A DNA stretch of 64,000 nucleotides, taken from Liolophura sinensis. Lineage: Eukaryota; Mollusca; Polyplacophora; Chitonida; Chitonidae. The notes beneath the pieces were generated by a model that saw nothing but the letters and a program-made list of their open reading frames with translations, was not told the origin of the DNA and ran no database searches. The position numbers were made by a program, and so were the translations under genes. The stretch covers positions 31,173,385-31,237,384 of the forward strand of contig NC_088295.1 in the NCBI RefSeq assembly GCF_032854445.1, in the 5' to 3' direction. Below are positions 1-50,100 of the stretch, one piece after another. Position 1 is the first letter of the stretch. Every line of letters begins with the position of its first letter.

Positions 1-1171
1 CCGCGAACATTGGCAGCGAACATTTCAAACGATTCAGGAGATGTCGTTGCTTCACTACTGAAGTCCATACTATGACTTGTATGTCATGTTAGAATTTGAA
101 ATTTGAAATGTCCACCAAACACAATAATAGATCTTCGTTCTTCGCTAGTTGTTCTAGCTGATTATGTACCAACTCATGTAAACTCAAAACAACACAAATC
201 TTTTTTGCAACTCATAGACAATACAATGATTTCTGTAGGACTAGAAAATTCAAGCATCCCTGAAACAGTATACAATGCAAAATGCATATAAATGATTTTG
301 GCGCTCAAGTCAATCATGCTGTATAAAAACAGTCAGTTGATTTCAGTGATGATATGAGGTTTACCAATAAAGTTTCATGCAAATTTCCTTCATTGTCAGA
401 GAACTTCGTGTTGATTTGCATTTTAAAAAAAAAATCATCATATATGGTTGCAATGTAACATTAAAGTTTGGGGTCAGGAACTTGAATGTTTTTTTGACAT
501 GTCGTTAGGGCTGTGCTATTAGTAGTGAATTAAAAATCCTGATGGGATATTGGACTCCATTTGCTTCTTTGAAATGCACAGCATATATGCCCAGATTCCA
601 CCAGGCTTGTTCTCTTTGCATCTTGTCAGCAGATGTGATTTCATACACATCTGGTAATGTTGTTTTAAAATGCTAATATCATTTAAAACTACACCGGACC
701 ACTTTCCATGAGAGATCTTTCACTAAAGGCGAATGTGACCTCCATATTGTCAGATTTCAGTCATGGTAAAAGTCAAGTTGTATTACAAATCAAACCACAT
801 GTTCCATGATGGCCTTTTAAGTTTTATTATTTACACATCAGTGAATCCCCGTATTTCCTTCACTGATAAAAATTATACCTTCACTAGTTAGATATCACTT
901 TTGTTATTACATTTTGCTATTACACTGTTGGAGACCTTGACCCTTCGTGGACCTCATCACAAGGCTGAGAACTACCGCGCAATATATAGTTTTCCAAAAA
1001 AAGAGGTAGAAATTCTTCATGTGCTTAATTTTCGTAAATACCTATATTGCATGGAACATTGACGTAAACGATGGCACATTACTTTTTTTTTTTTTTAACG
1101 GATGCAAAAAATAAACTAATGCGCATTTATATAAATGTAGAGAAAATGTCAGCAAATAAATAATACATAGA

Positions 1172-2960: not shown

Positions 2961-3651
2961 TTGACCTTGACTACAAGTAGGAGCATAAAGGAAAAACCCT
3001 GTATTATTTTCTCCTCCTGACCTTGGTTACAAGTAGGAGATTAAGCAAAGACCCTGTGTTTTTTTTCCTGATGATCTTTGCTACAAGTAGGAGCATAAGC
3101 ACAGAACCCAGTACTATTTTCTTCCCGACCTCAGTTTCAAGTAGGAACATAAGCAAAGAACCCTGTATTATTTTCTCCCTCTAAATTTGGTTACAAGTAC
3201 ATGTTGGTGCATAAGCAAAGAACCCTGTATTACATGTATTTGCTGCTTCTCTTGGTTACAGGTTGGAGCTTGAGCAAAGAACCCTGTATTTTCTGCTCCT
3301 TGGTTACAGGTTTGAGCATAGGCAAAGAATCCTTTATTTTTTTCTGTTCCTCTTGGTTACAGATTTGAGCATAGGCAAAGAACCCTGTATTATTTTCTGT
3401 TCCTCTTGATTACAGTTTTAAGCATAGGCAACAAACCCTGTGTTATTTTCTTCTCCTTTTGGTTACAGTTTTAAGCATAGGCAAAGAACCCTGTATTATT
3501 TTCTGCTCGTATTGGTTACGGATTGGAGCATGGGTAAAGAACCCTGTATTATTTTCTGCTCGTCTTGGTTACAGGTTGGAGCATCAGCAAAGAGCCCTGT
3601 ATTATTTTCTGCTTGTCTTGGTTACAGGTTGGAGCATGGGCAAGGAACCCC
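2961..3651 (+). repeat. Minisatellite (about 54 bp, about 13 copies) containing the 3' splice site of the first transporter exon
   Basis: Units run from a pyrimidine-rich stretch through TTGGTTACAGGTTGGAGCAT to AGCAAAGAACCCTGTATT. The last unit is the true acceptor (TTACAG at 3622-3627) plus the first 24 or so bases of the exon. Units nearest the exon match it best and those toward 2961 are more diverged, so the array appears to have grown leftward from the junction. Confidence 0.9.
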
Positions 3652-6600
3652 CACAACCTGTTACTGCTGATGACCATAGCTGGAGTAATCCTGGGTGTCA
3701 TCCTGGGGTTCCTGCTCAGACTGACCAAGCCCAGCCCAGAGGCCATCATGCTTGTCTCCTTCCCTGGGGATGTCCTGATGAGGATGTTAAAGATGCTTAT
3801 CCTCCCCCTCATCATATCCAGTTTGATTACAGGTATTGTATCAGTTGGAAGAAATTGTTATATTTGTTCATCAGACCATATTCACATTGAACCTAAATCA
3901 CAGTAAATAAGCAAGTTTCAATGTTAATATATTTTGAATATCAGTTTTGAAATTATTAGATTTAATTTTGGTTGCAACCTAAATTGTCCTCCCTTGTATT
4001 TCATTACACACATTGTTTGCCTCTGTGTGTATACCTTGCATTTTTCTGGTGTATATTAGGCATAACAGAAATTAGTATCTACGGCCATAATTTGTCAGTC
4101 AGTATAATACAGTAACTATTGGTCAGGCACACTGCAGAGTGGAACATCGTGATTTGCCGGCTCTTGACAGTTGATGTATGACTTCTGATGTGCACTCCTT
4201 GTACATCAATTACATGTATCTCAAGCCAACAAATCAAAGTGTTCCACTTTACAGCCTGTAATAATTGTGTATTCGAGTATTATATATGCATATACATATC
4301 AGGTAACAAGATAGAGCTGTTTTTTCTTTGCTTCTTAAGACTTAAAATGGTTGATCTAATATTACTGCATATTGAAGACAAATATTTGAAGTGTGATTGG
4401 TTTTACATAATGTATTGAAAAAAATTCATTCAGTGGGTTTGAGAGAGGAAGCAACATATGTATGTCTTTTGCTGCAGTTTTGTCTATATAAGCTTTAATA
4501 TCTACCTGTGATTACAGGTTTGGCTCACCTGGATGCCAGGTCTAGTGGTCGTATGGGACTGAGGGCATTGATCTATTACTTCTCCACCACCTTCATCGCC
4601 ATTATTACTGGTATCGTCCTCGTCACCATTATTCATCCGGGAGACAAGAGCATCAAAGAGAATGTACAATCCACAGGAACCCAGAAAGCTCAGGTGTCAT
4701 CGCTTGATGCTTTCCTGGATCTCATCAGGTTTATACTCCCAAATGTTTACCAGGTTATATGTTATATAGGAATTGTTTGTTCGATCAGTGGGCTAGATAA
4801 GGTGCAGGGAAGGGAGAATCATGTCTGAACATTGTATAAAACCATTGCACTTGCAAAGAATCTGAGAGATGTAATGAGGGGTGAAACTGAAGAGCGGTTT
4901 GAAGCAAGCATTACATATTTTGTGTAGTGTTATTCACATTGAAAACACCAGCAATAGCGGAGTTGCTAGTTCCAACTCTTTTGTCATTGAAGGTAAAAAC
5001 AGTCCTACATTGTCGTGTGACTTGTGAAAAATGCTAGGCAATCTTTGTTCACATTAATTTACTGATGACTTGTCTCACCATGTTCCAAAGTCACAAATAA
5101 CACCTCTTCCCTCTCTCAAGCTCACAAACATTCAGCACCTCAATTTTGTCCTTTGTCTATTCCACATGACATTTTTTGAAACTTTTTTTTCAGGAGCCCA
5201 TGTTATAGTAAATGTGAGCAAAAATTGTTGCCTGACATTTCTGACACATCTCGTGGTACAGCAGGACGTTTTTTACCTTCCGTGATAAAAGAGTGCAAAC
5301 TCGAAACCCCCTAGTGGAATGGGCTGGAATCTTTGTTGACAGGTCACATGAGAAAAATAGACCAATTTATCCAGTCTGAATATTTGTGGTGTTCAGCTCT
5401 GCATTTATCGGTTGTGAAAATAATGAAGCATAAGTTTGATTAGTCGTGTTTACCTTGAACATACAAGGCCCTGAATCCATCATATTGGTGCATAGATTTG
5501 TAATAATCATACATACACAAAATCAATGAACAAAGGGACACCACTCCTATCATGTTACAGTAATAATGATTGTCTGCTGGTTTTAAGATAGCTTAGGCCT
5601 ATCTTTTTGGTTGAATAGTGACTAGGCCAAGGCAAGATATAATACAGTGAAGTATTAAAACAGGAACAGATTTGTTGGATATCAAGATTTCCAGCAAATG
5701 TTTCCTCTTAACAAATATTTCATATAATATATATGAAATGTGTGTTCTGGATATTGGGCTGAGAAGTTGATTACATTAGTTATAGTTAGAGTGTATAATT
5801 TGTTATTTCATTTCACATAGCAGTATTTTTGTGTCATTTTTCACGCCATAGGAACATTTTTGCTGAAAACCTGGTCCAAGCTACTTTTCAACACACGCAG
5901 ACTGAGTATCAAACAGAAAAACAGGCAGTGGTGGAACGCTCCCAGAAGAACATGTCAGAGATGTTTAACATCACCAGTATGCTGGGCAACGACACAAATG
6001 TTACTGATGCTGATGTCCCTACCTTCCAAAAACGAAACTATGTTTACATGAACGGAATGAATGTCTTAGGTAAGTACAGATATTGTTAAACAAGTTCACC
6101 ATCAAGCCTCGTGGGAGCTGTCACATGAGAAAGCTACTGCATACTGATTTTAAACTTGCAAATAATTTTACATGTCTGAAAGAACAATGTACGGTACTGA
6201 TGCACATTTTGTTTGTCAGTGTGGTATTTCAACATTTGTTGGGGATTTTCAGTGTACATAACATAAGCTCTGTTATTATTCATATATGCTGCCTTTCATC
6301 CTGCTCACTGATGTTCCATTTGAATTTTTGTATTTTTGGGAAGTGATGTGTTATTTGAAATATTTGTGTATTGAAATAGCGATTTTAAGATTTGACCTGA
6401 CTTTACGACTCTGGCTAGTAAGGAGCAGCTACTAGAAATGACCCCTTGGAGATTAGGTAATATATTACAGTCCTGTAGCTGGTCACTCCTGTAAGACATA
6501 CTTCAGGATGAATTGTCTTCAAAATTGAGATGGTGACATTTATGTGTGTTTTCTTTTGCAGGGATCATCACATTCTGTATTGCCTTTGGTATTCTGATCA

Positions 6601-9600
6601 GCCGTATGGGAGAGAAGGCCCGCATCATGGTGGAATTCTTCACTGTCCTCAATGACATTGTCATGCAGCTTGTGGTCATCATCATGTGGTATGTACCAGC
6701 ATATAAAGGCATTCCAGCATACACAGGCATACCTGTATACACAGACATACCACTATGCGAAGGCATATCAGAATTCACAGTCAAACGAGCACACACAGGC
6801 TTACCAGCACACACAGTCATTGCAGCATACACAGGCAAACGAGCACACACAGGCACACAGGCATACCAGCACACACAGGCATACTGGCACACAGAGGCAC
6901 ACCACTATGCGCAGGCATACCAGCACACACAGGTGTACCAGCACACACAGGCATACTAGCACACACAGGCATACCAGCACACACAGGCATACCAGCACAC
7001 ACATGCTTACCAGCACACACATGCGTACCAGCACACACAGGCATACCAGCACACACATGCGTACCAGCATACACAGGCATACTAGCCCACACAGGCATAC
7101 CAGCACACACATGCATACCAGCACACACAGACATACCACTACGCGTAGGCATACCTGCACACACAGTCATACCAGCACACACAGGCATACCAGCACACAC
7201 AGACATGCCAGCATACATAGGCATGCCAGCACACACACACATACCATTATACACAGGCATACCAGCACACACAAGCATACCAGCACACACAAAAATACCA
7301 GCACACACAAGCATACCAGCACACACAAAAATACCAGCACACACAAAAATACCTAACTCATTAGGCAAATCTAGATCCACAACACCTCACTATTGGATTC
7401 TTGACTATTAAGTACACCTATGTATTCATCAATGTTGGAGAGTTGTTTTATTACACCCCATCAAATTTACTACGTTGCCCCCAGTGAAAAACACACCTAG
7501 CTATACTGTCCCAGCATCCATGGAGTCAGTATTGTCAAGGTGCTACTGCAGTGGGTGATATAGTTCATGTTTGGAACACACACAATTGAAATCAGAGCCC
7601 TTGAAATTGAGTCAAGCACAAGGGCTTGGCTTTGTCTTTGAAATATTTATTATACCCTTGTAACTTTCTGATGATTTAATCTCACATGTACCATATATTG
7701 TTATCTGTTTTCTTCAGGTACTACCCATGTACCATATATTGTTATCTGTTTTTCTTCAGGTACTCCCCATGTACCATACATTGTTATCTGTTTTTCTTCA
7801 GGTACTCCCCATGTACCATACATTGTTATCTGTTTTTCTTCAGGTACTCCCCATGTACCATATATTGTTATCTCTTTTTCTTCAGGTACTACCCATGTAC
7901 CATATATTATCTGTTTTTCTTCAGGTACTACCCATGTACCATATATTATTATCTGTTTCTTATCAGGTACTTCCCATGTACCTTACATTGTTATCTGTTT
8001 TTCTTCAGGTACTCCCCATGTACCATATATTATTATCTGTTTCTTATCAGGTACTTCCCATGTACCTTACATTGTTATCTGTTTTTCTTCAGGTACTCCC
8101 CATTCGGTATCATGTTCCTCATCATTGGAAAGATCATGGCATTGCCAGACCTGGGTGCTGTGGCTTCTCAGCTGGGTATGTACATGGTAACGGTGCTGGC
8201 AGGTTTGGTCATCCATGCTGTCATCACTCTGCCGTTGATTTACTTCATCGTCACCCGTAAAAATCCCCTGCGCTTTGTGCATGGTGTCTTACAAGCCTGG
8301 GTGACAGCCCTTGGAACAGCTTCGAGGTGAGTTAGCTGGAGGGGTTTACCATTGTGGTAGCTTATTCCTTACCTATAATATACTTTGACTGGAGCATTCA
8401 ATCACAGGAAGAGTTCATTTCACATTATTTGGGGTCTTTATATAACAGATGAACGTGCTGCAATATTGTGGTAATATTTCACATGTAAGTGTCATGTTAA
8501 GACCTAGTATAACTTAGACGAAGCAACAAACTTTCCCCCGTTTTGTAACATTGCTTTGGTGGATCAGATGAAAGGGAGAACAGACACATGAACTACCACT
8601 TAACAAAGTGGCATACTTCTCTTTTACTTATGTATTTCTTATTTATTTATTTATTTGATTGCTGTTTTACGCCATAATCAAGGGTATTTCACCAATACGA
8701 CGGCGGTCAGCACTATGGCGGAGGAAACCCTCCAGAGCCCGGGGATGCCCATGACCATCTGCAGGCTGCTGGCAGACTATGTATTTCTGGTTCTGTAGAT
8801 AAGATCACATCTCCGGTGTCAATGGTAGGAAATGTCTTCAGAAAACTTGATGCCATTAATACCAGTGCTTAAACTTCTGTGCAATATTGTCAGTGTATAA
8901 CTATTGATAACTGTCATTTGTAAATAGATGCCGTATTCATGATAAACACTCTGCTGTTTTAGTTCTGCCACATTGCCTGTGACCTTTCGTTGCCTGGAAG
9001 AAAACCTTAGCATTGACAAGCGTGTCACTCGCTTTGTGCTGCCTGTAGGTGCCACACTGAACATGGATGGCACAGCACTGTATGAAGCTGTGGCACCCAT
9101 ATTTATTGCACAGATGAATGGCATAGATCTGGGCATTGGACAGATCATTACTGTCAGGTAGGCATCATTCTTTTTCAGTTTATAATCATATAATTTGAGC
9201 CAGTATACATTATAAAGTTTGTTTTTTATTTCTTTATTTTTTTCCTAAATTACGGTTACTCTCCACTAATGTGTTTTGGCTTTTTGGGACACATAATCTT
9301 CTTCTTGTGTTATAGTTTCTCACCAGCATTATACCTCACCCAATGTGTTATAGTTTCTCACCAACTTTAGACCCCACCCCGTGTGTTATAGGTTCTCACC
9401 AACATTATACCCCACCCCACCCAATATGTTATAGTTTCTCACCAGCATTAGACCCAACCCCACTCAATGTGTTATAGGTTCTTACCAACATTATACCCCA
9501 CTCCACCCAATGTGTTATAGTTTCTCACCAACTTTAGACCCCACCCCGTGTGTTATAGGTTCTCACCAACATTATACCCCACCCCACCTAATATGTTATA

Positions 9601-12600
9601 GTTTCTCACCAGCATTAGACCCCACCCCACCCAATGTATTATAGTTTCTTACCAGCATTAGACCCCACTCCACCCAATGTGTTATAGTTTCTCACCAACA
9701 TTATACCCCACTCCGCCCAAAGTGTTATAGTTTCTCACCAACATAAAACCCCACTCCAACCAATTTTTTATAGGTTCTCACCAACATTATACCCACTTCA
9801 CCCAATGTGTTATAGGTTCTCACCAACATTAGACCCCACCTCAACCAATGTGCTATAGTTTCTCGCCAACATTATACCCCACTCCACCCAATGTTATAGG
9901 TTCTCACCAACATTAGACCCCACCCCACCCAGTGTGTTCTAGTTTCTCACCAACATTATACCCCACTTCACCCAATGTGTTATAGGTTATCACCCACATT
10001 ATACCCCACTTCACCCAATGTGTTATAGGTTCTCACCAACATTAGACCCCACTTCACCCAATGTGTTATAGGTTCTCACCAACATTATACCCCACTCCAC
10101 CCAATGTTATAGGTTCTCACCAACATTAGACCCCACCCCACCCAATGTGTTATAGTTTCTCACCAACATTATACCCCACTTCACCCAATGTGTTATAGGT
10201 TCTCGCCAACATTAGACACCACCCCACCCCTCCTAATGTGTTGTGGCCTCTCTTGACACACATAATTCTGCCTTTAATGTAGTATGGTCGATCATCCCAA
10301 AGCATATGGATAATGGATTTCAGATTCTCATTCAAGCTTACTCTCTGACCATAATCCCTCAACCTTTTCGCATGTGAAAGAGTAACAAGTGCAGTTTATT
10401 CACATTTTAAAGTCATTTTGAAGACAAAATTACATTGGCTACATGGGCCAATTTCTGGGCTTCACAAGAAGTGTAATTTTATCAGTCTACACAAAATAAT
10501 GCCTTCAGAATATGCTTGAATAAATACCTTGCAAAGATGTGAAAAGGTTGAGGAATTACAATATGTTTTTGGTCCCTAATGTCATGCACATAACTTGTAA
10601 TTGCTCATCCCAGATTATCCTTCCTTTAGTGTATTTGTTCTCATCTTATCTCATCTCACCTTTAAGTTCTCATCTAAAGCCATCCTGTCCCCAGTGTGTT
10701 TTCTGTTGTCTGTTCATGAACACAACCTATCCACTGCTATGTTTCAGTCTGACGGCCACCTGTGCCAGTATTGGAGCTGCCAGTATCCCCAGTGCTGGCC
10801 TGGTCACTATGTTAATGGTGCTTACCTCTGTTGGCCTGCCAGTTGAAGACATCAGCCTTATCCTGGCTGTTGACTGGTTTTTGTAAGTTCTTTGTGCTAA
10901 GCTTGTCATTGAAGATCCAAGATTTTGTTTTGTACATGTATATAAACAGTGAGAATTGGCCAAAGCTGTGCACCACCCTTGATAGCACAGTTGGTAGAGC
11001 GTTTTCTTCAGGGGCAGTAGATCCGGGGTCAGTCCTGGGTCAAGTCACACCTAAGACCTTCAAAGGGGAAGTTGTAACTTCCTCGCTTGGCGTTCAGCAT
11101 GTAGGGGATAGTGCAACGACTGGTTGACCCGTATCATTATAATATAGCACCAGATAAAAGAACGGTGGAAATCTGTCCTGCAACAAGGAGGCACATTACA
11201 TGCACTCTATGGATTTCTTTGTTGTCATATGACTGAAAAATTGTTAAGCTTGACGTTAAGTCCCAAGCACTCACTCACTCACACCAAAGCTGTGCATGTC
11301 ATAGCTAAGTTCAGTACAGCGCAGAGTATATGTACATATATGTACCCTTGGGGTTTTATGTTGTACTTCACAAATATAGTGCAATATATGTGTGTGTTAT
11401 TTACCTCCATGTGAGGAGCATATTCTTGAATCAGGAATACCATGAATATTTCAGAATGAAATCTGTTTTAGCTAAGCACATTAGCTGAGAAATGTCTTTC
11501 TGAGCTATTGGTCAGCTTGGGCTTGAAAACGTTAGCTGCATTACCAGATTATTATATTTATTTTATTTGATTGGTGTTTTACGCCGTACTGAAGAATATT
11601 TCACTTATACGACGGCGTCCAGCGTTATGGTGGGAGGAAACTGGGCAGAGCCTGGGGAAAACCCAGGACCATCCACAGGTTGCTGCGGACCTTCCCACGT
11701 ACAGCCGGAGAGGAAGCCAGCATGAGCTGGACTTGAACTCACGGCGACCGGATTGTTTGTTGAGAGGCTTCTGGGTCATTACTCTACGCTGGCGTGCTAA
11801 CCAGCTGAGCCACAGAGGCCCCCAGAACTCCAGAAAACTTCAACAAATGTTAATACATGGTCTAGTGATTAGAGGTGCTTACCTCGCACAAGGTGCAGGT
11901 TCAAAAGCAGCCGTGGACTGGGAATGTGAAGTTTTTCCAAAATTTTACTGCTTGTGACGCCTTTGGCGATAGAAACACAACGCCTGTACAGCGTAACATT
12001 CTTTAAAGAGAATTGTCTTGCACTAATCTGGCGTGCTAATCTGTATGTCACTTGTGGGAAAGTTTGTTAGTAACTTACCAAAGGTCAGTGGTTTACCCCG
12101 GCTACTCTGGTTTTCCATTCATAATACTAAATACCATAACATATAGGTGAAAAATTCTTGATTATGGCGCTACACAACAATCAAATAAAGAAATAAAGAT
12201 TTGGCAAAATGAGTTTATCATGCTTGATCAGAACTGAACATGTGATTCCTCATGCAGTTGTTTTACTTCTGCTTTCCTCTAATATCTAGTCTACGTACAA
12301 GTAATCTTTTCCGACATGGTTGTTCATTATCTCTTGCATATACATTTACAGGGACAGGATCCGAACCTCGATCAACGTTCTGGGCGACTCATTTGGGGCA
12401 GGTGTTGTGGAACACTTGTCTCGTCACGAACTGGAAGCCAGAAGGCAGCAGGAGGAGGAGGTGTTAGCAGAGGAGGGGCAGGGGGAAAAAGGCGAGTGTG
12501 AAAACAAGGAGCAGCCTGAGAAGGAGGAGGAGATGGGGGACAGCAAGGTGTCACTGGAGAAGAAAGAGGCCCCTGAGACACTCTACCCTAACAACTCACT

Positions 12601-18890: not shown

Positions 18891-20573
18891 TTACCTGCAA
18901 GTGCATAAGTTGTCCTCTTTATACAGTTTCAGAATTGTTTTCAGCTGTTTCATCAGAGCGCTAATTTCATTCTGCAGCACACCAGAAACTTGTTCCTTGT
19001 GCTTGTCAGCAAAGTCTTGCAGCTTTGCAGCATTTGACATCTCACTTTTGGACACCACTTTGTAGGGCCAGCTCAGCAAGAGAATGCTGAAGAAGTGTGC
19101 AGGTGTTAGCAGCTTCATTAACTCACAGCACTGCACATTACCTGACATACAATTCGGAATCCCAGCAGCCCGACACACCTTTTGAACCACTTCTTTAGAC
19201 TTGGTGGCTACAAAATCACAGAGAGTCAAGGACAATAATGGAAAGATGTCCAGTTTTTCCAGACTCTCCATCATGTCTTTGACTGCGCACAGGTGTCCTT
19301 CTGACACCAATTCTGGACACTTGACATCCAACTGTGACGTCAGAATGGATGCTGTCTCGGATAAAAATGACGCCCACTTTAACACTTCTAGAACTGCCTG
19401 CTGAACAATACTTTCTTGATCTTTGTCAGCGTCTGCTGGCTCAGAGAGCCACTGTAACCAAAAGTTCATGAAGGTAGTCAGCTCTGAGGACAGGCCCTGA
19501 CTAAATGTCACACTGAGTTGAGGGGAAATACGGAACAGCAACAGAGGAGTGAAATCAAAGTGTCGGGACAGCTGGATGTATCCTCTTGGCTTTCCTGAAA
19601 GGTAAATTAAAGTTTTCAATCAATTTGCAAAACAGTTTAAATCAACAACTCATTGAAATATTACATACTGTGATGGTTTATTCCTGGAGGACATAACATC
19701 AACTTCATCTTTAAGCCACGCCATCATCATGCAGCGATTAAAACATTGCTTTTGGTCAAAAATGAATATTATATAGAAAACATAATAATGACAAAACCCT
19801 CACCCCCAACAAACCCTGACCACCTCCTGTTTTTCCTTTGCTTCTTCTCTTTCAGAACTGAAAATCTGTTCAATACATGTACTCAGTGCAAACTGCATAA
19901 GTATGTTTGTGTAGACAAATATTATACCTGTGTCTGGGTCTATACTCCTCATGGCTGTGACCAGTGTGGTAACAGGTACCCAGTGAGGAGGGTATTTAAA
20001 TCTGGCTGTATCCAGCACCAGGGCCAAATCTCTACCTGGGTGGTATCCTCCAATGGGAGAAAAATGGCCATCCCCTGTCTGGTTAAGAACTTTACGGGAG
20101 TATGAAATCACCAGGACACTTTTGTCTTGCCTCGTGGTCTGCTTTACAACTTCACGAAATGTACCTTCTGAGAAATTCTCCTCTGCACGCACAGGCTGTG
20201 TGATCAGGAAGTTGCACTCTGCCAGACAGACAAAGTTATCAAACGTGATCCCTTGTTTTTTCACCAGCTGTAGAGACATACAGCAGTCCAGCATGCTCTC
20301 ATGGTACCATCTCCATGGGCCTTTCCACACTCTACCAGGGTCGACAGAGAGTGAGTTTAAAACCATAACCAAAGTGGAGAGACCACAAAATGCTGGCTCG
20401 TCTTGGGTCCTAAACTGAGCGGCCAGCTTGAAGTAACAGTCCATGTGTCCAGAGCTAAGAGCTTCTTTGAAAACCTGCTTTCCCTCTTCTGAGCTGAACT
20501 CAATACACCCAGCTGGCAGTTCTCGTCTGTAGAACTGTTTCGGTGACTGTGGTGGTGTTACATGTACGTTCAT
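18891..20573 (-). CDS. PCS: Phytochelatin synthase (glutathione gamma-glutamylcysteinyltransferase)
   Basis: Papain-like enzyme that joins gamma-Glu-Cys units from glutathione into metal-binding phytochelatins (Cd, Zn, As detoxification); cytosolic in known cases. Exon 1 runs 20573-19928 (215 codons plus 1 nt); exon 2 begins at 19594 after a TTTCAG acceptor. ATG at 20573-20571 is the first in-frame Met. The catalytic triad is complete: Cys63 in PAFCGLS, His170 in TGDGHFSPIGGY, Asp188 in ALVLDTARFKYPP. The His-Asp spacing of 18 equals that of the plant enzyme. WKGPWRW, SMLDCC and SIDPDTGKPRGY are also family hallmarks. Exon 2 encodes the variable C-terminal region, ending near CTCR. Total length to the first stop is 449 residues. 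The stop TAA overlaps a good donor (CAG/GTAAAA at 18895/18894), so the gene may instead splice to a further exon not identified here. It lies opposite in strand to its neighbours. Confidence 0.93.
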
Positions 20574-21415
20574 GGTGAAAGTATGTGCTTCTCGAACATA
20601 AGGAAAGACGTCACACTGTAAAGGTAGGTCACCATGTTACATTCTGCTATAGACCTAAAAACAAATTAAAAGACATGCTGTAAACTGGAAAGTTAACCAA
20701 AAGTTAACCATCTTGGTACACTCCATTTAGGATGAGCATTGTCTCTCAGCAATGTAAACTAATTTAGTACACTCATATAGAAAACCTTTCCCACAGAGGG
20801 ACCTACCAACATAACCTGCCTTGTGAATTTATACTCATAACTCCACACACAGCATGTGCAACATCATTTAAAATTTGATTTTTTAATGGTTAAATATTTG
20901 GTATGGTTGAGTTTTCACTGGGGTGTTTCACAAGTTATAAACCTGATTTTTCAGTGTCTTTTGGAGTTGAATGGCTGTTTGCATTAACCTTTGCCATTCT
21001 ACTGAAAAACACAACTCACTTTGAAAATTTATTATTTTTATGTCAACATATGTTGAAGTGGTTTACTTCATTGCTATATACGTCTCGACACACCTTCACA
21101 TTTTAAAGGCATGTTTCAGCCAACCAACTCTTTATCCTGCAGGTATTTCACTACAAAATATGTACAGGTTTTTAAAAGCATATTTAAGATTAAAATTTTA
21201 TCTTATAATATCTCTAAAGTATTGCAATGCCCACTGTCCATGGTTTCCTTTGCTTTTGACTGGATTATCAAATTAATTTTCGGCACCCATTAAGTTTTTA
21301 TAACAACAGATCACTTTTTGGTCGGAAAATAGTGAAATGAATATTTGTGACGTGACGTTTCTCTGTCATTTGACTTTGTAAAATGTATGTGCCAAAGTAA
21401 AAATATTTAAAGAAA

Positions 21416-30118: not shown

Positions 30119-32570
30119 GTTTGGTTGCAGTTATTTCATCCAGCTGACAAAACAGGACAAAGTGTTGAACATGGCAACCTATTCCTGGCATTGGAAGAGA
30201 CATTTCTATCACAGAAAGGATCAGGTAATTAATGTGTCATAGTACTGAAATTTTCAACATGTAGACACCTGGTGTTAAAAGCTATGTAGTTTTGTTCTGC
30301 ATTTCTCAGAGCTTTGTGCAGATTGATATGTTCAAGAATGCCTGAGTTTCATTGTTGGCCAACCAGTCCAGATTTCTTCAGATTACGCAGTTCGCTATCT
30401 GCAAGATTTGTTTGCAGGCTTACATCAGGAGCTTTGTAATTTCAGTTAATGCCTGGTTTCCCTTTGGACTCTGGCTGGTTTCCCCCATCCATAAGTCTGT
30501 AAACTGCTATTATGAGTTACAACAGAAGAGAACTATACATGTACATGATGTATTATAACTGCAGTTATACAGAAAAATGCAGTTTTATCACACAGTTCAT
30601 TGGTCTACACTTTATATAGTAGCTGTTTTTTTTATTTTCTATGAAATGGACGAAGGCAGCAAATCTCATTGTCTTAGAATGTTTTTTCAAGCATTAAAAC
30701 ATGTCTAATCTGTCCATACTAGACTTTTTGTTAGGTAAGTCATATTGACTTACCTAACCTAAGTTGTTTTTTTTTTTTGTTTTGTTTTTTTCATTTTTCA
30801 AGTCAAATTACTTGTTACCTCACCACTTAGTAACAATATTATAATTATAATATCAGTTATGATTTTTTGGGGGGAGATACAGGTGATGCCACTTCTGTCA
30901 TCAGAAGAAAACAAGATACAATGCAAGATGGAAATTGTCAACAAATGCATCTTCTCATCAAATTAAAAGCATGGCATCTTCTGGCTGAATGTTATGTGAT
31001 AATTGGTAATGTTACTGTATTGTATGTTCAGATAATGTTACTGTATTTGTATGTTCAGGTAATGTTACTGTATTTGTATGTTCAGATAATGTTACTGTAT
31101 TTGTATGTTCAGGTAATGTTACTGTATTTGTATGTTCTGGTAATATTACTGTATTTGTATGTTCAGGTAATGTTACTGTATTGTTTGTTCAGATAATGTT
31201 ACTGTATTTGTATGTTCAGGTAATGTTACTGTATTTGTATGTTCAGATAATGTTACTGTATTTGTATGTTCAGGTAATGTTACTGTATTTGTATGTTGTG
31301 GTAATGTTACTGCATTTGTATGTTCAGATAATGTTACTGTATTTGTATGTTCAGGTAACGTTACTGTATTTATATGTTCTGGTAATGTTACTGTATTTGT
31401 ATGTTCAGCCTTTGACAACTTTTTATTTTTTACTATTAACTTTTATTTAACTGTTTATTCCACCCATGACTACATTAGCTGTATTGTATTCCTGATGAGT
31501 CACGGGGCTTGGCAACTGTCTGAGGCTCATGGAGTAACTTACTTACTGGTTTCTATAATTCTTCAACCTTTTCGCTTGCTTGAAAGGTGTTTATTCAAGC
31601 ATATTCTAAAGGCATTATTCTGTGCAAACTGCCTGAAGCTGACCAACCCAACTAGTATGGTTTTGCCACCAATATCACATTAAAAAGGTGCATAAATCGC
31701 ACTGAAAGCTGTGAAATATCTGAGGAATTAGGGAAGGTTGACATATAAGCATCTAAATGCCATCTTACGGGGTGGATGTGGGTAGCTGGGTGAGACATCT
31801 AGTAACAGCCTAAACTTGTGTCTGTGCTGAGCCAAGTATTACGATATGTAAGTATAGAAAGATAACCAGTGGGACAAAGGGAAGCTTTTTTGAGTGGAAA
31901 ATATTCAAATAAACATGTTGTACTGGTGTTCAATAAATTTGAAAGCCACATGAGTTTGTCCCTATTTTTTTTTTTAACTGGTAATGGCTGATTCTATAGT
32001 TGGGATATGATTGTGCTATTTATGAAAACTGAATCATTTAGTAAAACTTTTCAGCATTATTTACTAGCTAATATAAATCAAGTTTCCTGATATTGATTTT
32101 TCCATGACATTGTGTTGACCAACAGTTTAGTTAAGCCATTCCACTATCATAGAGGTGTTAAATGATAAGTGATATCAGTTGGTGATTGGTTCAGCTACAT
32201 GTAGATAGGAATTTTGTGCATAACTTAAGTTGTATCCTGTATGTTGATAGTGGAGTGGTTTTTCTAATGGGACTGCACACATACACATCATGTGTGTTTA
32301 CTATAAATATTGAGTACACGAATATGCACACTACAGCTTATACATGTAATATGTACTTATATGTATGTGTGAAGAATATATGTATCACGAATGATGATAA
32401 ACATTATAGACCTGATGTTTTTCTTATATTTGTCTGTGACAGAAATGACATGGGCTCACCCTAACACCCAAGACCTGTACCAATGTTTGGTGGCTGGCTT
32501 TATCTTCCCTGCACTCACGATGAGATATGACCCATTCGTTTTCGTACATCCTCCTAAGATTATGTTCTGA
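30119..32570 (+). CDS. Candidate pair of exons of an unidentified gene
   Basis: Exon 30119-30224 follows TTTTACGTCCTAG and ends CAG/GTAATT. One frame is open (VWLQLFHPADKTGQSVEHGN...) and leaves phase 1. The next piece, 32443-32570, follows TTTGTCTGTGACAG, takes phase 1 and reads EMTWAHPNTQDLYQCLV... to a TGA. The phases agree, which is weak support only. I recognise no domain, and the opposite strand of the second piece is also open. Possible further exons nearby: 33430-33483 after TTTCTCCCAACAG, ending in TAG. Confidence 0.22.
30730..30758. repeat. Perfect 13-bp inverted repeat
   Basis: Arms GTTAGGTAAGTCA and TGACTTACCTAAC, separated by TAT. Followed at once by a T-rich run. No gene is evident next to it. 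Confidence 0.85.
31005..31412 (+). repeat. Minisatellite (about 27-28 bp, about 15 copies)
   Basis: The unit is TGTTACTGTATTTGTATGTT followed by CAGGTAA, or CAGATAA in alternate copies. Units alternate between CAGGTAATG and CAGATAATG, implying a higher-order unit of two. Open frames on both strands here come from the repeat and are not taken as genes. Confidence 0.92.
31555..31740. mobile_element. TIR MITE copy, same family as 10356
   Basis: It starts ATTCTTCAACCTTTTCGCTT and carries GTGTTTATTCAAGCATATTC and the ATTATTCTGTG segment in inverse orientation to the copy at 46240. The far end is diverged (GGGAAGGTTGAC). Confidence 0.65.
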
Positions 32571-41100: not shown

Positions 41101-44100
41101 TGTTTGTGTTCTGCGCACCCAGCTCCAGTGCCCCCTAAGGTAGTAGGTCACACCTCAGAACATACCTCTGTGAACATCAGCCTGACCGGTGGGGCGGAGA
41201 CCCCCAGGTACTCTGTGCAGGCCTGCCTTGCTTCTCCCCACCTAGGTAAGATTCTCCTTATGTCTGACTGTGTTCTGAACTTGTATGCCAAAGGATTAAC
41301 AAATTTTAACCTAAAAGTTAAGTTTACTGTAACCTTCAACCTTTTCAACCACTAATGCACCTTTTTCAGTGGAATTTAATGCATACAATCATTATCAAAA
41401 TGACGCCAAGTTTTTTTGTGTCATTAAAGATGTAAACTTCACAAAACTGTGCAAATTAATTCCCAGTTACCTAATACAGGTTGCAGAGGCGGCTGAAGAG
41501 TTAAGGTATATTAATATATGAATCTGAATATAACTTGGGGAATCAGAAACCTTTTAAAATGTGATGTTTGTCAATTGTAGTTTGCTAACATTCACAAAGG
41601 CTGATGTTGCAAAAATACTTAATTTTGCAGGAGAAACTGATCCTTGTTCTGATGCTGATACTAGGCCATCTTATGCCACAGTAAAGGACTTAACACAGGG
41701 TGGCCATTACAGAGTCACTGTGGCAACAGAGTTTTGTGGCATGACAAGTGAATACAATGAGTTCAGTGCTTGGACAGGTATGGATGGAGTTTTAACTACC
41801 ATAGCACACAAGAGTTTAACTGAAAGCTGGGGATTTTCTATGTTCACACATGAAGAATTTTTGTGTAACGGTCATTACAATAGCATTAATAACAAGTCTT
41901 ACATGTACATATCTGCATGGAATGTTTTAAATTGTTTGGCACAGGACAAAATAAACAACCTTAGGTATCTAACCAGGTTTGTTTGATTTAACACAAAGCT
42001 TTTAATTTTTGCTAAATGTTGTTCACAGTCTTCCTCTCCTATGGAGTCTTATGAAGACTATAGAAGCTTTTGTTCTCAAAATTGTTCACCAGTTTTTGGT
42101 GATATATACACATTCATGACTGTGTACACAAAATTTTTTGTCCATCTATCTGAAAGCAAGTTTATTAGAGCTCATGTGGGTTAGATACACTTGCATTTGG
42201 CGAGTACATCTATCATCAGTATCTGACATGATCATTTCTGTCAGGAACTATGTGTACCCTATTTCTTCTCATTTTTGGGACACCTGGTCTGCTCATTTTA
42301 GCCAATATATATGTAATTATACCAGGAATATTGAGTTATTTTTTTTCTCACATGGTCAGACCATCTAATGAACAACATACTCATATTTTTACTTTTTCAA
42401 AAGGTTGGTAAAGAAATGTAATATTCTACTTTCAACGCTATTAACATCTCATTTTAAATCTCAAAAATTAGGGTATCCTTTTGACCATCAGTCTGTCCTG
42501 TATTTGTTCCTTAAGATGCAAAACTTAACTGAGAGTTGACCCTGAAATATGTTAATTAAAATTTTACAGCTAGAGATTACTGATGTTGAACCAGGTGTGT
42601 ATTGTTAGGTGACGAATCTGAACTCAGACTTACCTAGTCTACAAACACTGGGTAATTTTAATATCTGTATGTGCCTTTATAAACTGATCTAAATTCTGGT
42701 GTAATCAGTCCCTGAGATCTCTGAGATGTTGGTGGACTGCCACACCGGAGACTGTGAGACGAGTGGTGAAATATCATGGTGGCTGGCTGACGAGTCGTAC
42801 GCCGACGAATTCAGGGTGACAGGGAGCAACGGACTGAATTGCACTGTACCTTGGGTCTTCGAGCAATTCACATACAGCACCAATGCAGATAAACTGTCCC
42901 CTGGTCTCACCTACCACTTTACAGTGGAAGCCATTGTGAAAACTGGACAAGGTGTACTGAAAAACTTGTTTGAGGATGATTATACCACATGTAAGTAATA
43001 CAATGCAGTTGTGCATCGCTTAAATTTTCTTGTTTTTTTTTTCAGTTCATCACTGTGTTCATTTTCCTTTTAATGAAAACAAATAATTTTTAAACCCTTC
43101 TGTTCCAAAAGTCATGGAAAATGAGAACATTGATTAACATATAAAGAAGCCCAAAAAGATTTTTTGTGGAAACAGAATTTCTGTAATTCTTCAGCCATGT
43201 ATGCAAGGTGTTTATTAAAGCATATTCTTAAGGTGTTATTCTGTGTTGACTGATAAAATTATGCTTTTGCGAAACATCAACACTCACCTATCCAACCAAT
43301 GTAGTTTTGTTTCCATAATGAAATTAAAAATGTGCATAAATTACACAAATAAGTGAAAAGGTCATGAAAGTAGGGGACATGTATTAGTGATAGTGAAATA
43401 CTTTTATCTGTAGAGTAGTTAGCAAGACTTGTATTTATGAAATAATTGTGATAATAAGTAAGTTTTTTTTTTCACATTTTTTCTTTTTTCAGTGCCACCG
43501 CCTGCAGTTATCAAGAGCCACCGGATTGTTGATGAGAAAAGTGTGATACTGGAACTTTCTACCAGGATTCCTTTGAATATAACTGGTCCTTACATGTACA
43601 AATTGTTGTACTGCCTAGGTGAGTATTGTTAGGTGACTAATTTAAACTCAGATCTATCCAGTGTTTACCTGTACAAACTGATGTACTGCCCAGGTGTGTA
43701 CTGTTAGGTGTCTAATCTGAACTCATATCTACCCAGTGTTTAGCTGTAATGAACTCTAATGTGAAATCAGATCTACCCAGTGTGTACCTCCACTAACTGT
43801 CGCACAGCCCAGGTGAGTATTATTAGGTGTCTAATCTGAACTCATATCTACCCAGTGTTTAGCTGTAATGAACTCTAATGTGAAATCAGATCTACCCAGT
43901 GTGTACCTCCACTAACTGTCGCACAGCCCAGGTGAGTATTATTAGGTGTCTAATCTGAACTCAGATCTACCCAGTGTTTAATTCCACTAACTGACGTACA
44001 GCCCAGGTGTGTATTGTCAGGTGACTAATTTAAACTCAGATCTATCCAGTGTTTACCTGTACAAACTGATGTACTGCCCAGGTGTGTACTATTAGGTGTC

Positions 44101-47100
44101 TAATCTGAACTCGTATCTACTGAGTGCTTATGTGTAATGAACTCTAATCTGAAATCAGATCTACCCAGTGTTTACCTCCACTAACTGTTGCACAGACCAG
44201 GTGAGTATTATTAGGTGTCTAATCTGAACTCAGATCTACCGAGTGTTTAATTCCACTAACTGATGTATTGTTAGGTGACTAATTTGAACTCAGATTTACC
44301 CAGTCTACAAACACTGGGTATTTTTAATATTTGTATGTACTGATCTGTACTTTCCAGACCTGCCTACTTGTACGATTTTGGTGTGTTTTGTACGCCAAAC
44401 ATGTACAAAATATGACCATACCTTAAAGAGATATGAAATATGCTTATTTCCCTTACACGGAAGAAAATAAAAACCAAAGTCCGATTAAATGCAGTGATGT
44501 GCACGAAGAAAGCAGATGTAAAAGCACTAAGCCACTTACAGTGAGAAATTCTTGAACAAGCATTCCTTGATTCCCCTAGAATTGCAGCGTCACAATGCCG
44601 CGTCACAATTGGGAAATCCACATCATCACATGATGAGTATAGGTCCCCAGTCTAGAATGGCTGTAAAACTCCTTGAATATTTTATGGTATCCATATATGT
44701 GACATTTGTTCATATGTGAAATTTTTTTTGCAGTTCAATAAGCAAACCGTCAAAAAAGCCTGATCACAGAAAATATACACAACTCATCAAAGCTTATACA
44801 CCAGCTAAATATGCTATATCATTAATAACCTCATTGAAGTAGAACATGAAGAATTTTCCTCTTAACTAAGACACCAAACATGTTTTTTGTTGCCCAGTTG
44901 GGTACCTTAACCCCTTTTTTGGAAATTCCTGACATCTCTATTGTAGTGACACAAGTTACCGTAATTAAAACGTTTTTGCGTTGGTGTTTTTATTTGAAGT
45001 GATTTTTAAGAAGGATTAAAAATATATCTGCAACATTGTTGTCGCAGTTTTGTATACATATAAAATTTGATTTGTACACCTAAATATGAGTGTTTGTAGA
45101 CATTACATTCATTAGGGGTAGGCATGTCTGACTTTCTAAAATATGACAAGTAATTTACTACCCATGGCCACAGCCAGTTCTCAAAGGATCATCATCGTGA
45201 CATTGTACATATGTATCACCTTTTCCATCTTACGTATTGATTTCTTTGTAAATCATTTGTGTTGTTGATTTCTTGTTTTCTTTTTTGAAGTTGTGGATCA
45301 CCCAACAGAGTGCAGTAAAGACCAAACAAAGAAGGTGAACACACCAGGGCCAACCTACCACACACTGGAACAATTTCATCCATTTGGAAAATACAACATT
45401 TCTGTGACTTCTGCTGTGTTTGGTGAAGTTGTAGAGGAAGTCATTAACCCAAAGTCTGCATGGATTTTCATATCACTAGGTATGGACATGGTACATTTAC
45501 TATGCAGTATCTAGCTATAAAGGAAGTAATCTCTGTGTGCGAGTATGTCAGTCATTAAATTTTATCCACGACCATGCAGTGTTATATGTAGTTTCATAAA
45601 ATTTCATAAAACTTCATCAGTCAATTTTTCTCCAACTTCACTCGTAAATCACACTGTCAGATGGCATTATAACTTGGGCAAGAAAGTTGATTTTCAAACT
45701 TTTGTGAAATTGTCTCCCAAATGTAAGCTCTATTGACATTCATTATTTAAATGATTTTTCCAGAGCCTAATCTATGGGTGGCTGTGATACAATGGAAAAC
45801 AATCAGGGCTGACCAGATTGAGTGCTATGGACTCCAGCCAATGACACAAGCCTGTGTACAGTGGTCTCTATCTTTCAACATCTCTGCTCCTATAAACATC
45901 ACAGTTTACAGCAAATCTGCCATAACAGGAAGTGACCAGTCTGCGGAGCTACCTGGTGGACAAAATGAGAAGGGAGAGAACTTGTACAGAATTGAAGGGC
46001 TTAGTCCTGGCTTAGCATATAACTTCACAGTTGTGATAATGTCAGGCTTGTGGAGAAATGAGAAAACTACACAGATTTATTACACATGTAAGTGCTTGTA
46101 TACAGTAAGTCTCAGTAGGTCAATGCTCTGAACCTTGATGTGTTGGAAAGAAAGCACTATCCAGATAAAAAGTTAAGAATCATTTTCCTCCATGAATAGA
46201 GAATGGAGCGACATTATGTTTTGCAAAAATTTCACTACCCTTTTTCCTCAACCATTCAGCATATCAAAGAGCAAAGTTCATTGCAGTTTATGCACATTTT
46301 TAATTTGATTTTTGGAAACAAAAGTTCCAACAGACAAAAGCCAGTTTCAGGGCATCACAAAAAGTTTAATTTTACCAGTCAACACGGAATAATGCCTTCA
46401 GAATATGCTTGAATAAACACTTTGCAAACATGGGAAAAAGGTTAAAGAATTAAATTAATTTCAATTTAACTACATGTTAACTTAATGTAACCTGAAAAAA
46501 AAAACCTGCGGAGAAAGTGGTAATGGCCAGATTGTCCACCTTACATTATATAGCACCAACTTCCGAGGTTACTTGGGTCAACATATGTTATGTAGCATAT
46601 AGTTTGACAGTGTGGATCGTGTTTTTTGCATAAGGGTGTTTTCAAACATGTCCGGTACCTGTTTTCCTTTATTTATTTATTTGATTGGTGAAGTGAAATA
46701 TTCTTGAGTAAGGCATACAACACCAATCAAAGAAATAAATAAAAGAAATATTTGATTGGCATTCTATGCCATACTCCAGAATATTTCACTTACTTGATGG
46801 CATCTGGTCTTATGATGGCAGGAAACCAGGCAGAGCATTGGGGAAACCCACAACCATCCACAGGTTGATAGTGGATCTTCCCATGTATGACTGGAGAGGA
46901 AGCCAGAGTGACTCACTAGACTCATTCAGCCACGGCAGCCCCATCTGCTATTTTCAGGCTTGGATTTCACTGTGTTATGTCTTCTGCATCTGCAGATTTG
47001 TGTAATAGATACAATCTTCTCACAGCAGCCTTGTCTCCCCACAGATCCCTCATCCCCTGACATAATGAACCAGACCTCAGCAGATACGACCTCAGTGACT

Positions 47101-50100
47101 CTCAGCCTTAACAAAACCTCACACAAAGATGCTGAGGAGGAGTACGAAGCTAGACTCTGTGACACCTCTGTCAAAGGTAAGTTGTGTTTGTGATGTCCAT
47201 ACAGACAAATTTCTGTCTGTCTCAGTATTTCTAAGTTGAGTGGCTAACTCCAGTAACAGCAAAAATTAAAATTTCTGCATTCAAGTGGACAGTCCTTACT
47301 GGAAGTTACTTCGCAATGTAGGAGATATTGATTTGACTTGAATGAGGTTTTATACCATGTAGATATAGCAATCACTGAAATTTATTGAACATGTAAATGT
47401 ACAGGATTGGGAGTACAGTTTTCACAAGGAACATGTTATGATGTCATTGTCATCTTGATTTTGATTGGCATTATTAACATTAAGAGTGTTTTGTCTCCAG
47501 GTAGCACAAGTTAGTTGCTTCTATATATGAGATTTGTAACTTCCTGTTTTTTTACAGATTGTAAAGACAGTTGGACAGAAGATAACTTAAAGCTAAAAGT
47601 GCAGAACATGATGTTGACAATAACCGGCTTGAATCCCTCTACGAAGTACAACATATCTCTTAGAGCGGTGATAGTGAGGGGAGATAACTCCAAACTTGTT
47701 AGTCAGCGAATCACCTCAAAAATAATATACACAGGTAATAGACAAGACTAGTGCCATTTCTTAGTAAAACCTGTGTTGAGGTTACAACTGAAATATACCC
47801 AGCTCCATTTTGTTCATCGCCATAATAAAGGGAAAGACAAGATTGCCATAAGGTGTCTTGTTAAACAGCCATTTAGTAGCTTGTTATATGTAGGTGTAGC
47901 TATAAGCTGTCTGTTTTTGATTTCCCCTAGTTTTGCATACTCACTGTCATGTAGCAGTTTTGGTGACTCATTTGCAACTGTGTTTAATGTAATAAGACAG
48001 GTGTTTTGATGCCAACTGCAGGGTTCAAATTAGGATATGTCTGATGGTGTACTATGATTCTTTAGTCTTATGAATTGTACAGGTCAAATAAAAACAGGAC
48101 ATGTTAACTTTATACCAGCTAGAAAATAATTCAGTTCCTAATGGCCTACACTGTTTATGGTACTATTAACCTTTCATGTTTTTTATCGCTTGCTATTGCA
48201 AAACTGTGGTCGACTTTTCAGTTGCCAGTAATAATCAGCTGTTTTGAACCTTGGATGTGTGCTATAATTTGGGAAAGAAGTATATGACACATGGCCTAAA
48301 ATTCTGTCAATGACTAAGCCACTTATTTTACACGATTCTGAAGAGTTTTGTTGACTCTAGAAAGATATTTTGAGGCATATTTCAAAAGATCAACAAGAAA
48401 ATGTTCCAGCACCAAAAGTAACCTTTATTTACCTCTAAAAATGTGATTTTTGAGAGCAAATACAATAATATTGATAAAAATGCATGAAACAGTGTCTGCT
48501 AGCACAATCCCTTTAGTGCCCATTAATCTACCATGTCCAGCATTTCTAATTTACAGGTAAATCTCCTAAAATTACAATGATGGAACTAAGAATATTGGAA
48601 ATCCAACAATCTCCTCAGCCTACACTGATAGATTTGAGATTATTGGAAATCCAACATTCTCCTCAGCTTACACTGATAGATTTGAGATGATTGGAAATCC
48701 AACATTCTCCTCAGCCTACAGTGATAGATTTGAGATTATTGGAAATCCAACATTCTCCTCGGCTTACACTGATAGATCTGAGATTATTGGAAATCCAACA
48801 TTCTCTTCAGCTTACACTGATAGATTTGAGATTATTGGAAATCCACCATTCTCCTCAGCCTACACTGATAGATCTGAGATTATTGGAAATCCACCATTCT
48901 CCTCAGCTTACACTGATAGATTTGAGATTATTGGAAATCCAACATTCTCCTCAGCTTACACTGATAGATTTGAGATGATTGGAAATCCAACATTCTCCTC
49001 AGCTTCCACTGATGGATTTGAGATGATTGGAAATCCAACATTCTCTTCAGCTTCCACTGATAGATTTGAGATCATTGGAAATCCAACATTCTCTTCAGCT
49101 TGCACTGATTGATTTGAGATGATTGAAAATCCAACATTCTCCTCAGCCTACACTGATAGATTTGAGATTATTGGAAATCCAACATTCTCCTCAGCTTGCA
49201 CCAATAGATTTGAGATGATTGGAAATCCACCATTCTCTTCAGCTTGCACTGATAGATTTGAGATGATTGGAAATCCACCATTCTCTTCAGCCTACACTGA
49301 TAGATTTGAGATTATTGGAAATCCACCATTCTCCTCAGCTTACACTGATAGATTTGAGATTATTGGAAATCGACCAATCTCCTCAGCTTACACTGATAGA
49401 TTTGAGATTATTGGAAATCCAACATTCTCCTCAGCTTACACTGATAGATTTGAGATGATTGGAAATCCACCATTCTCCTCAGCCTACACTGATAGATTTG
49501 AGATGATTGGAAATCCAACATTCTCCTCAGCTTACACTGATAGATTTGAGATGATTGGAAATCCACCATTCTCCTCAGCCTACACTGATAGATTTGAGAT
49601 GATTGGAAATCCACCATTCTCCTCAGCTTACACTGATAGATTTGAGATTATTGGAAATCCAACATTCTCCTCAGCTTACACTGATAGATTTGAGATGATT
49701 GGAAATCCAACATTCTCTTCAGCTTACACTGATAGATTTGACATTATTGGAATTCCACCATTCTCCTCAGCTTACACTGATAGATTTGAGATGATTGGAA
49801 ATCCCACATTCTCCTCAGCTTACACTGATAGATTTGCGATTATTGGAAATCCAACGTTCTCCTTTAATAAGCCATAATGTTGCTGAACATAGAATATGTA
49901 AATTCTTCTGAACTTACATGAATTGGGTAAAGAATGTAAAGAACCTATGTTGGTGTGATAGGAAATATATGAAATGTAGCATTCTCTCAAATTTATATTG
50001 GTATAGCATATTATACCATATTATAGAAAAGTGCATGTCTGATTGAAATACACCCACCAAATGAATGTATGATCTCATCCTTCTAGCGCCCCTGGAGCCA

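Follow-up and report, generated by a model that had tools for sequence, protein, structure and literature searches.

A minisatellite across a 3′ splice site of a glutamate transporter gene in the mollusc Liolophura sinensis

One exon of a glutamate transporter gene in Liolophura sinensis is preceded by a row of strong and almost interchangeable acceptors. Such a row could serve the protein, endanger its splicing, or do neither. The window analysed here is a stretch of 64,000 nucleotides (NCBI RefSeq assembly GCF_032854445.1, contig NC_088295.1, positions 31,173,385 to 31,237,384 of the forward strand), and all positions given below are those of the window unless a locus is named (Table 1). A first, sequence-only reading had proposed that the row could be a built-in generator of protein length variants, or a splicing hazard under selection to stay in frame. 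In our analysis, the array is very probably a neutral minisatellite overlapping an exon edge, of the kind known in amphioxus as mirages.

The array and its host gene

The host gene is an EAAT-like member of the SLC1A family. Once the exons are joined by hand, the predicted protein matches PF00375 with 390 bits over profile positions 1-386 of 387, and its nearest solved structure is EAAT2 (E 1.1e-82). The SDF domain and the close match to EAATs place it among the SDF glutamate transporters, as the first reading had supposed. Joining the exon before the array intron to the acceptor at 8093 gives the sequence IIMW/YSPFG, and 186 residues of the joined protein then align to EAAT2 with zero gaps. 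Because of this gap-free alignment, acceptor 8093 is taken as canonical and is, as read from the protein, probably the site in use.

Tandem Repeats Finder (TRF) describes the array as 10.1 copies of a 42-bp period with 90% matches. The unit is made up of a pyrimidine tract, followed by CAG and 11 bases from the start of the exon. CAG/GTAC (the slash marks the boundary) occurs ten times, with site starts from 7715 to 8090, and the nine units between acceptors are all 42 bp long except for a single one of 39 bp. The reading frame of the exon is open from 7680 through the exon end. Upstream acceptors are predicted to add 14, 28, 42, 56, 69, 83, 97, 111 or 125 residues at the W/YSPFG junction. Copy number, unit lengths and the open frame agree with the sequence-only reading, and its proposed point of insertion holds as a prediction.

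The mean pairwise divergence between units is 8%. Between units 6-7 and units 8-9, 83 of 84 bases agree, which makes the used acceptor part of a recently duplicated block; the working splice site of the exon thus appears to turn over together with its decoys. In this one assembly, the array therefore displays the concerted turnover that characterises mirages. CAG/GTAC is preserved at 10/10 sites despite at least nine substitutions over the 42 columns, and simple arithmetic puts the chance of sparing these seven bases at about 0.19; to that extent the preservation counts against a neutral array. A dispersed repeat family as the source of the array was rejected, as a query of two units (84 bases, with very common words skipped) matched the array locus alone in the genome.

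Table 1. Positions of the features discussed (window coordinates, except for locus L031)
Feature	Position	Strand	Remarks
42-bp minisatellite (one 39-bp unit)	7685..8103	+	copies the acceptor together with exon bases 1-11
First base after CAG, ten acceptors	7718, 7760, 7802, 7844, 7886, 7925, 7967, 8009, 8051, 8093		
Nine units 5′ of the acceptor taken as used	7718..8092	+	nine strong upstream CAG/GTAC, including the acceptor before 7718
84-bp duplication adjoining the exon	7925..8092	+	units 6-7 versus units 8-9
Branch-like CTTAC (putative, weak)	8066..8070	+	A at -24 of acceptor 8093
Second CTTAC copy	7982-7986	+	before acceptor 8009
SLC1A exon starts recognised	3628, 4518, 5852, 6562, 8093, 8963, 10748, 12352		
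SLC1A exon before the array intron	6562..6688	+	ends within the W codon; donor 6689, phase 2
SLC1A exon YSPFG...GTAS	8093..8326	+	acceptor is the last repeat copy; canonical protein
Second acceptor array, same gene	2972..3650	+	12.5 copies of a 53-bp unit; the last 23 bases lie in exon 3628
18-bp minisatellite	6694..7345	+	starts 5 bases into the array intron, adjoining donor 6689; one forward frame fully open
Further minisatellites	43590-44267, 48589-49863, 9306-10229, 31005-31408		
Phytochelatin synthase exon	19800-20636	-	PF05023, 285.5 bits
Acceptor array, 46 bp x 4.3	L031, about 810-1005		GH18 chitinase-like exon

Other repeats in the window have features of their own. A 42-bp array at 60931-61143, inside an intron of an FN3-containing gene, carries in its units a donor-like AAGGTAAGT and an acceptor-like TTCTTCAGG that flank some 16 bases, and its units resemble repeated micro-exons. 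Among the four further minisatellites, one with a 48-bp unit (26.6 copies) has open frames of 180 and 254 codons. Translations of 56763-58374 give the impression of retroelement-like open frames; a weak zinc-knuckle match there narrowly misses the cut-off of its family.

Reading frame and splice signals

A working generator of transporter length variants would occasionally use upstream acceptors and so insert 13- or 14-residue units in the membrane region. The ten strong acceptors fit this proposal, as do the nine inserts, which are all in frame and open; furthermore, the human ABCA7 VNTR mis-splices unit by unit according to the available text, though on the donor side and out of frame (PMC5954066). 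Openness is, however, not a property of the exon frame in particular, since each of the three forward frames has 0 stops in 139 codons. The sequence-only reading had suggested a count of stops against simulated neutral arrays, and this comparison lends no weight to a generator. At the observed divergence of 0.08, 0.58 of 3000 neutral runs leave the exon frame free of stops and 0.24 leave all three frames so; the share of simulated arrays with an open exon frame falls to 0.43 at a divergence of 0.12 and to 0.34 at 0.15. Only 0.12 of shuffled units are stop-free in all three frames. When arrays are grown from shuffled units at the mutation rate that gave a divergence of 0.12, 0.31 of them have an open exon frame and 0.012 are open in every frame. 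A unit that is stop-free in every frame is therefore unusual, yet this is not specific to the frame of the exon.

Distinct changes from the consensus, read in the exon frame, comprise 2 silent and 7 replacing ones against 25 and 93 possible, which is the neutral ratio. Seven other arrays of the window were tested, and two of them, at 6694-7345 and 60931-61143, likewise have a forward frame without stops. No frame-specific constraint on the inserts, by which functional in-frame tandem acceptors would be recognised, was detected in these few changes of low power. Selection on the frame, considered as a candidate explanation, is thus unsupported by the stop counts in all frames, by the neutral simulation and by the silent-to-replacing ratio, and the array data do not call for it, though so few changes give little power.

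The competing splice signals were scored with an acceptor matrix built from 29 acceptors (21 of the window and 8 of paralogues). The ten array acceptors score between 11.8 and 14.2, whereas the reference acceptors have a leave-one-out median of 5.9 and extend from -3.2 to 17.6. Five of the upstream acceptors tie with 8093 at 14.2 and the other four are slightly lower. Across the window, 9 of 3713 plus-strand AGs reach or exceed the score of 8093, counting 8093 itself and the five ties.

A sequence element that could discriminate between these acceptors is the branch-like motif YTNAY, which is found at -18 to -40 in 49 of 72 introns and, among the ten acceptors, before 7718, 8009 and 8093 only. 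Its density per intron is 0.46 at -30 to -21 and 0.15-0.35 per ten bases farther upstream, but it is still 0.44 in the pyrimidine tract. In addition, CTTAC, the form preceding 8009 and 8093, is not enriched by acceptors (1 near, 6 far, ratio 0.78). As a pointer to usable acceptors, YTNAY is thus a weak hint.

These signals bear on the possibility that the array is a mild splicing hazard, in which upstream acceptors are used at a low level, the transporter so produced is inactive and the array is under weak selection. The strengths of the acceptors and the distribution of YTNAY among them are in line with such a hazard. Selection on the frame, however, leaves no trace, arrays that break the frame have persisted at the corresponding boundary of a paralogue (see below) and, with the 53-bp acceptor array, in this same gene, the YTNAY excess runs on into the pyrimidine tract and CTTAC is unenriched. 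We consider this explanation unlikely, although clearly worth keeping in mind; it overlaps with that of a neutral minisatellite, which admits leakage without selection on the frame. Of the hazard under frame selection proposed by the first reading, the hazard itself is plausible in view of the acceptor ties and of ABCA7, as far as the latter is described in the available text, while the frame selection finds no support.

Boundary arrays in paralogues and in the genome

The 8093 exon was located at 17 places in the genome, and ten loci were cut, one being the window's own. In 10/10 of them the exon starts with AG/G-TAY at the same position and in the same phase. Eight of the ten are without an acceptor array of TRF score at least 50; one of these (L019) was counted as array-free, though a two-copy 13-bp row of score 40 covers its acceptor. 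A paralogue on contig C14 (L020) carries a different array at the same boundary, with 49-bp units (one of 48) and 15 acceptors. Its unit has 16 exact bases in common with the exon start, and the intron part gave no convincing alignment with the 42-bp unit in an informal comparison. None of its 14 upstream acceptors yields an open in-frame insert. That two paralogues bear arrays at homologous boundaries could point to a predisposed site. The C14 paralogue (L020/L028/L082/L083, C14:1246000-1274000) sits in DNA of which 45% is tandem arrays.

The paralogues speak to two of the alternatives. A generator of length variants is opposed by the frame-breaking array at the same site and by the eight loci without an array of the above score there, in addition to the equally open frames, the neutral silent-to-replacing ratio and the gap-free alignment to EAAT2 at the point of insertion; we regard it as very unlikely, and the first reading's proposal of such a generator is not upheld. 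The array could also be a nascent intron that arose by AGGT tandem duplication (the Rogers model), as AG/GT in each unit offers a possible acceptor and donor. Yet position and phase are common to 10/10 loci cut, of 17 places, so that the intron is not novel relative to its homologues, and with eight of them array-free it looks old. Furthermore, the units are weak as donors: they score 2.2-4.6, whereas 22 donors of the window have a leave-one-out median of 8.3 and extend from 0.5 to 13.4. A nascent intron is therefore extremely improbable.

Arrays at acceptors are not confined to this exon. In the 53-bp array of the same gene, the similarity of the copies on the whole falls with distance from exon 3628. 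The three further boundary arrays have periods of 53, 49 and 46, none of them divisible by three, and the 3n period of the 42-bp array would be a chance outcome.

Do arrays favour acceptors? Of 23 window acceptors, 2 have tandem copies within 3 kb, compared with 107 of 1160 background 40-mers within 1.5 kb; the window lists omit an FN3-gene exon whose acceptor is unclear, as well as the phytochelatin synthase gene on the minus strand. Among genes with FN3 domains on C4, C7 and C6, copies occur at 0/49 acceptors, where the background (25/1174) predicts about one. This sample covers 52 of 80 listed matches, with 150 of 443 candidates scored; three acceptors and two donors that lacked a positive score, likewise without copies, were left out, and a few of the kept acceptors are probably wrong where two domains share one exon. 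Donor mirages were sought as well and rejected, with copies at 0/22 donors of the window (within 3 kb) and 0/50 in the FN3 genes.

Array coverage differs strongly between regions, from 1.0% in the C4 FN3 gene to 27.6% in the window gene and 45% around the C14 paralogue. For the window gene, this coverage would place about two of the eight acceptors within arrays, and by eye two do lie there; for C14, nearly three of six acceptors located by tblastn are expected and one is seen by eye. Arrays thus cover acceptors about as often as the local repeat coverage predicts. Genome-wide, triplets of an acceptor-like word gave 385 matches and those of the reversed word 390, and a second variant gave 366 and 383; these match counts speak against a strong preference for acceptors. 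Counted by hand and without normalisation to word frequency, the clusters on C1-C3 number 24 for the acceptor word and 13 for the backward word. With one founding unit per array placed at random in two gene spans, 0.39 boundary-spanning founders are expected for seven arrays and two are seen (P(>=2) 0.049), a value that is post hoc because the window was selected for the 42-bp array. A mild preference is possible on the basis of the founder count and the clusters.

For the acceptor word, 26 loci found by the word search were cut, comprising each of the 24 clusters on C1-C3 plus two from C4; for the backward word there were 20, of which 12 came from the 13 clusters on C1-C3 and eight from later contigs. 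Six stretches chosen by eye among 159 open frames near array edges were compared with Pfam, a choice by which exons of no obvious look may be missed. Three of the stretches exceeded the cut-offs, with matches to GH18 in L031 (40.6 bits against 29.6), to REJ in L029 and to gelsolin in the backward-word locus L067; an LRP2-type EGF match in L039 (29.4 bits) fell just below its cut-off of 30, and two of the six gave no match. The array crosses the acceptor into the exon in L031 only; in L029, L039 and L067, whose exon edges are not precisely called, the exon as judged by eye lies near the array and does not overlap it. Arrays may crowd by exon edges at these three loci (REJ, EGF-like and gelsolin, respectively).

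Origin of the array and comparison with known systems

The neutral minisatellite would have originated in one tandem duplication spanning the acceptor and the first exon bases, and would have grown by unequal exchange or slippage. The founding duplication was presumably almost silent for the mRNA, since the exon-proximal copy would still splice and give the normal product. As long as splicing keeps to this copy, neutral expansion would be tolerated and the intronic copies change free of coding constraint, as the neutral stop count and silent-to-replacing ratio indicate. The spliceosome would most likely choose acceptor 8093, because the full exon follows there only. Leaky use of an upstream acceptor is possible; the first candidates, if any, would be 8009 (+28 residues) and 7718 (+125), which with 8093 are the sole carriers of the weak YTNAY signal at the distance given above.

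A more elaborate proposal adds to this picture the recurrent colonisation of one acceptor in paralogous transporter genes by boundary minisatellites, with the working site and its decoys turning over in concert and with low-level in-frame use, foremost of 8009, making transporter variants with 28-residue (or longer or shorter) inserts. The lack of CTTAC enrichment by acceptors lowers its odds, and we judge this combination improbable. As a source of protein diversity, the array is without support. Nevertheless, its ten near-equal acceptors and the fifteen frame-breaking ones of the paralogue would provide a natural test of 3′ splice site choice.

Several known systems resemble the array in part, as far as the available text of the sources describes them. 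NAGNAG-type tandem acceptors also compete in frame; the 42-bp array differs in its spacing, its ten copies and its origin as a repeat, and its alternative use is hypothetical. In AGGT tandem-duplication intron gain (PMC3443670), AGGT is likewise present in each unit, whereas the array intron is common to paralogues and a new intron is not evident. The VNTR in intron 18 of human ABCA7 has a 25-bp unit and takes in the donor, and some of the transcripts contain one additional unit (PMC5954066). A real splice site lies inside the repeat unit in both cases (in ABCA7, the first unit), but ABCA7 concerns the donor side, its shorter unit shifts the frame and unit-wise mis-splicing has been observed there. 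Papers on DDX3Y and haemocyanin, considered as further boundary-array cases, are not such cases in the text available. Within the accessible parts of the open-licence literature, boundary mirages come from amphioxus only, next to the donor case of ABCA7, and a molluscan case was not found.

The closest likeness is to the amphioxus mirages, which the available text of two papers describes as minisatellite-like duplications of intron/exon boundaries in Adh3, the globins BflGb6 and BflGb9, troponin C and PGBD5 (PMC3087553; PMC3902484). Adh3 data and globin RT-PCR suggested that mirages leave regular splicing undisturbed, and mirages vary in length, at Adh3 even somatically (PMC3087553). As far as these descriptions go, splicing and length polymorphism were tested in amphioxus, whereas the 42-bp array is known from the sequence of one assembly alone. 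In BflGb6, the cluster boundaries are reported as excluded from homogenisation, whereas the exon-proximal copy of the 42-bp array lies inside the 84-bp duplication. The array is also molluscan and its unit in frame, unlike those of the amphioxus cases described. Amphioxus itself was rejected as the source of the DNA on the strength of eight consecutive matches on C8 to the haemocyanin beta-sandwich family (PF14830), a marker of molluscs. The two share the tandem duplication of a boundary, many units bearing AG/GT, similar units within the cluster and the location at an acceptor, mirages occurring also at donors. With a minisatellite-like tandem repeat whose unit spans the boundary and carries the splice signal, the 42-bp array is, by its sequence features, of the mirage class, here in a mollusc.
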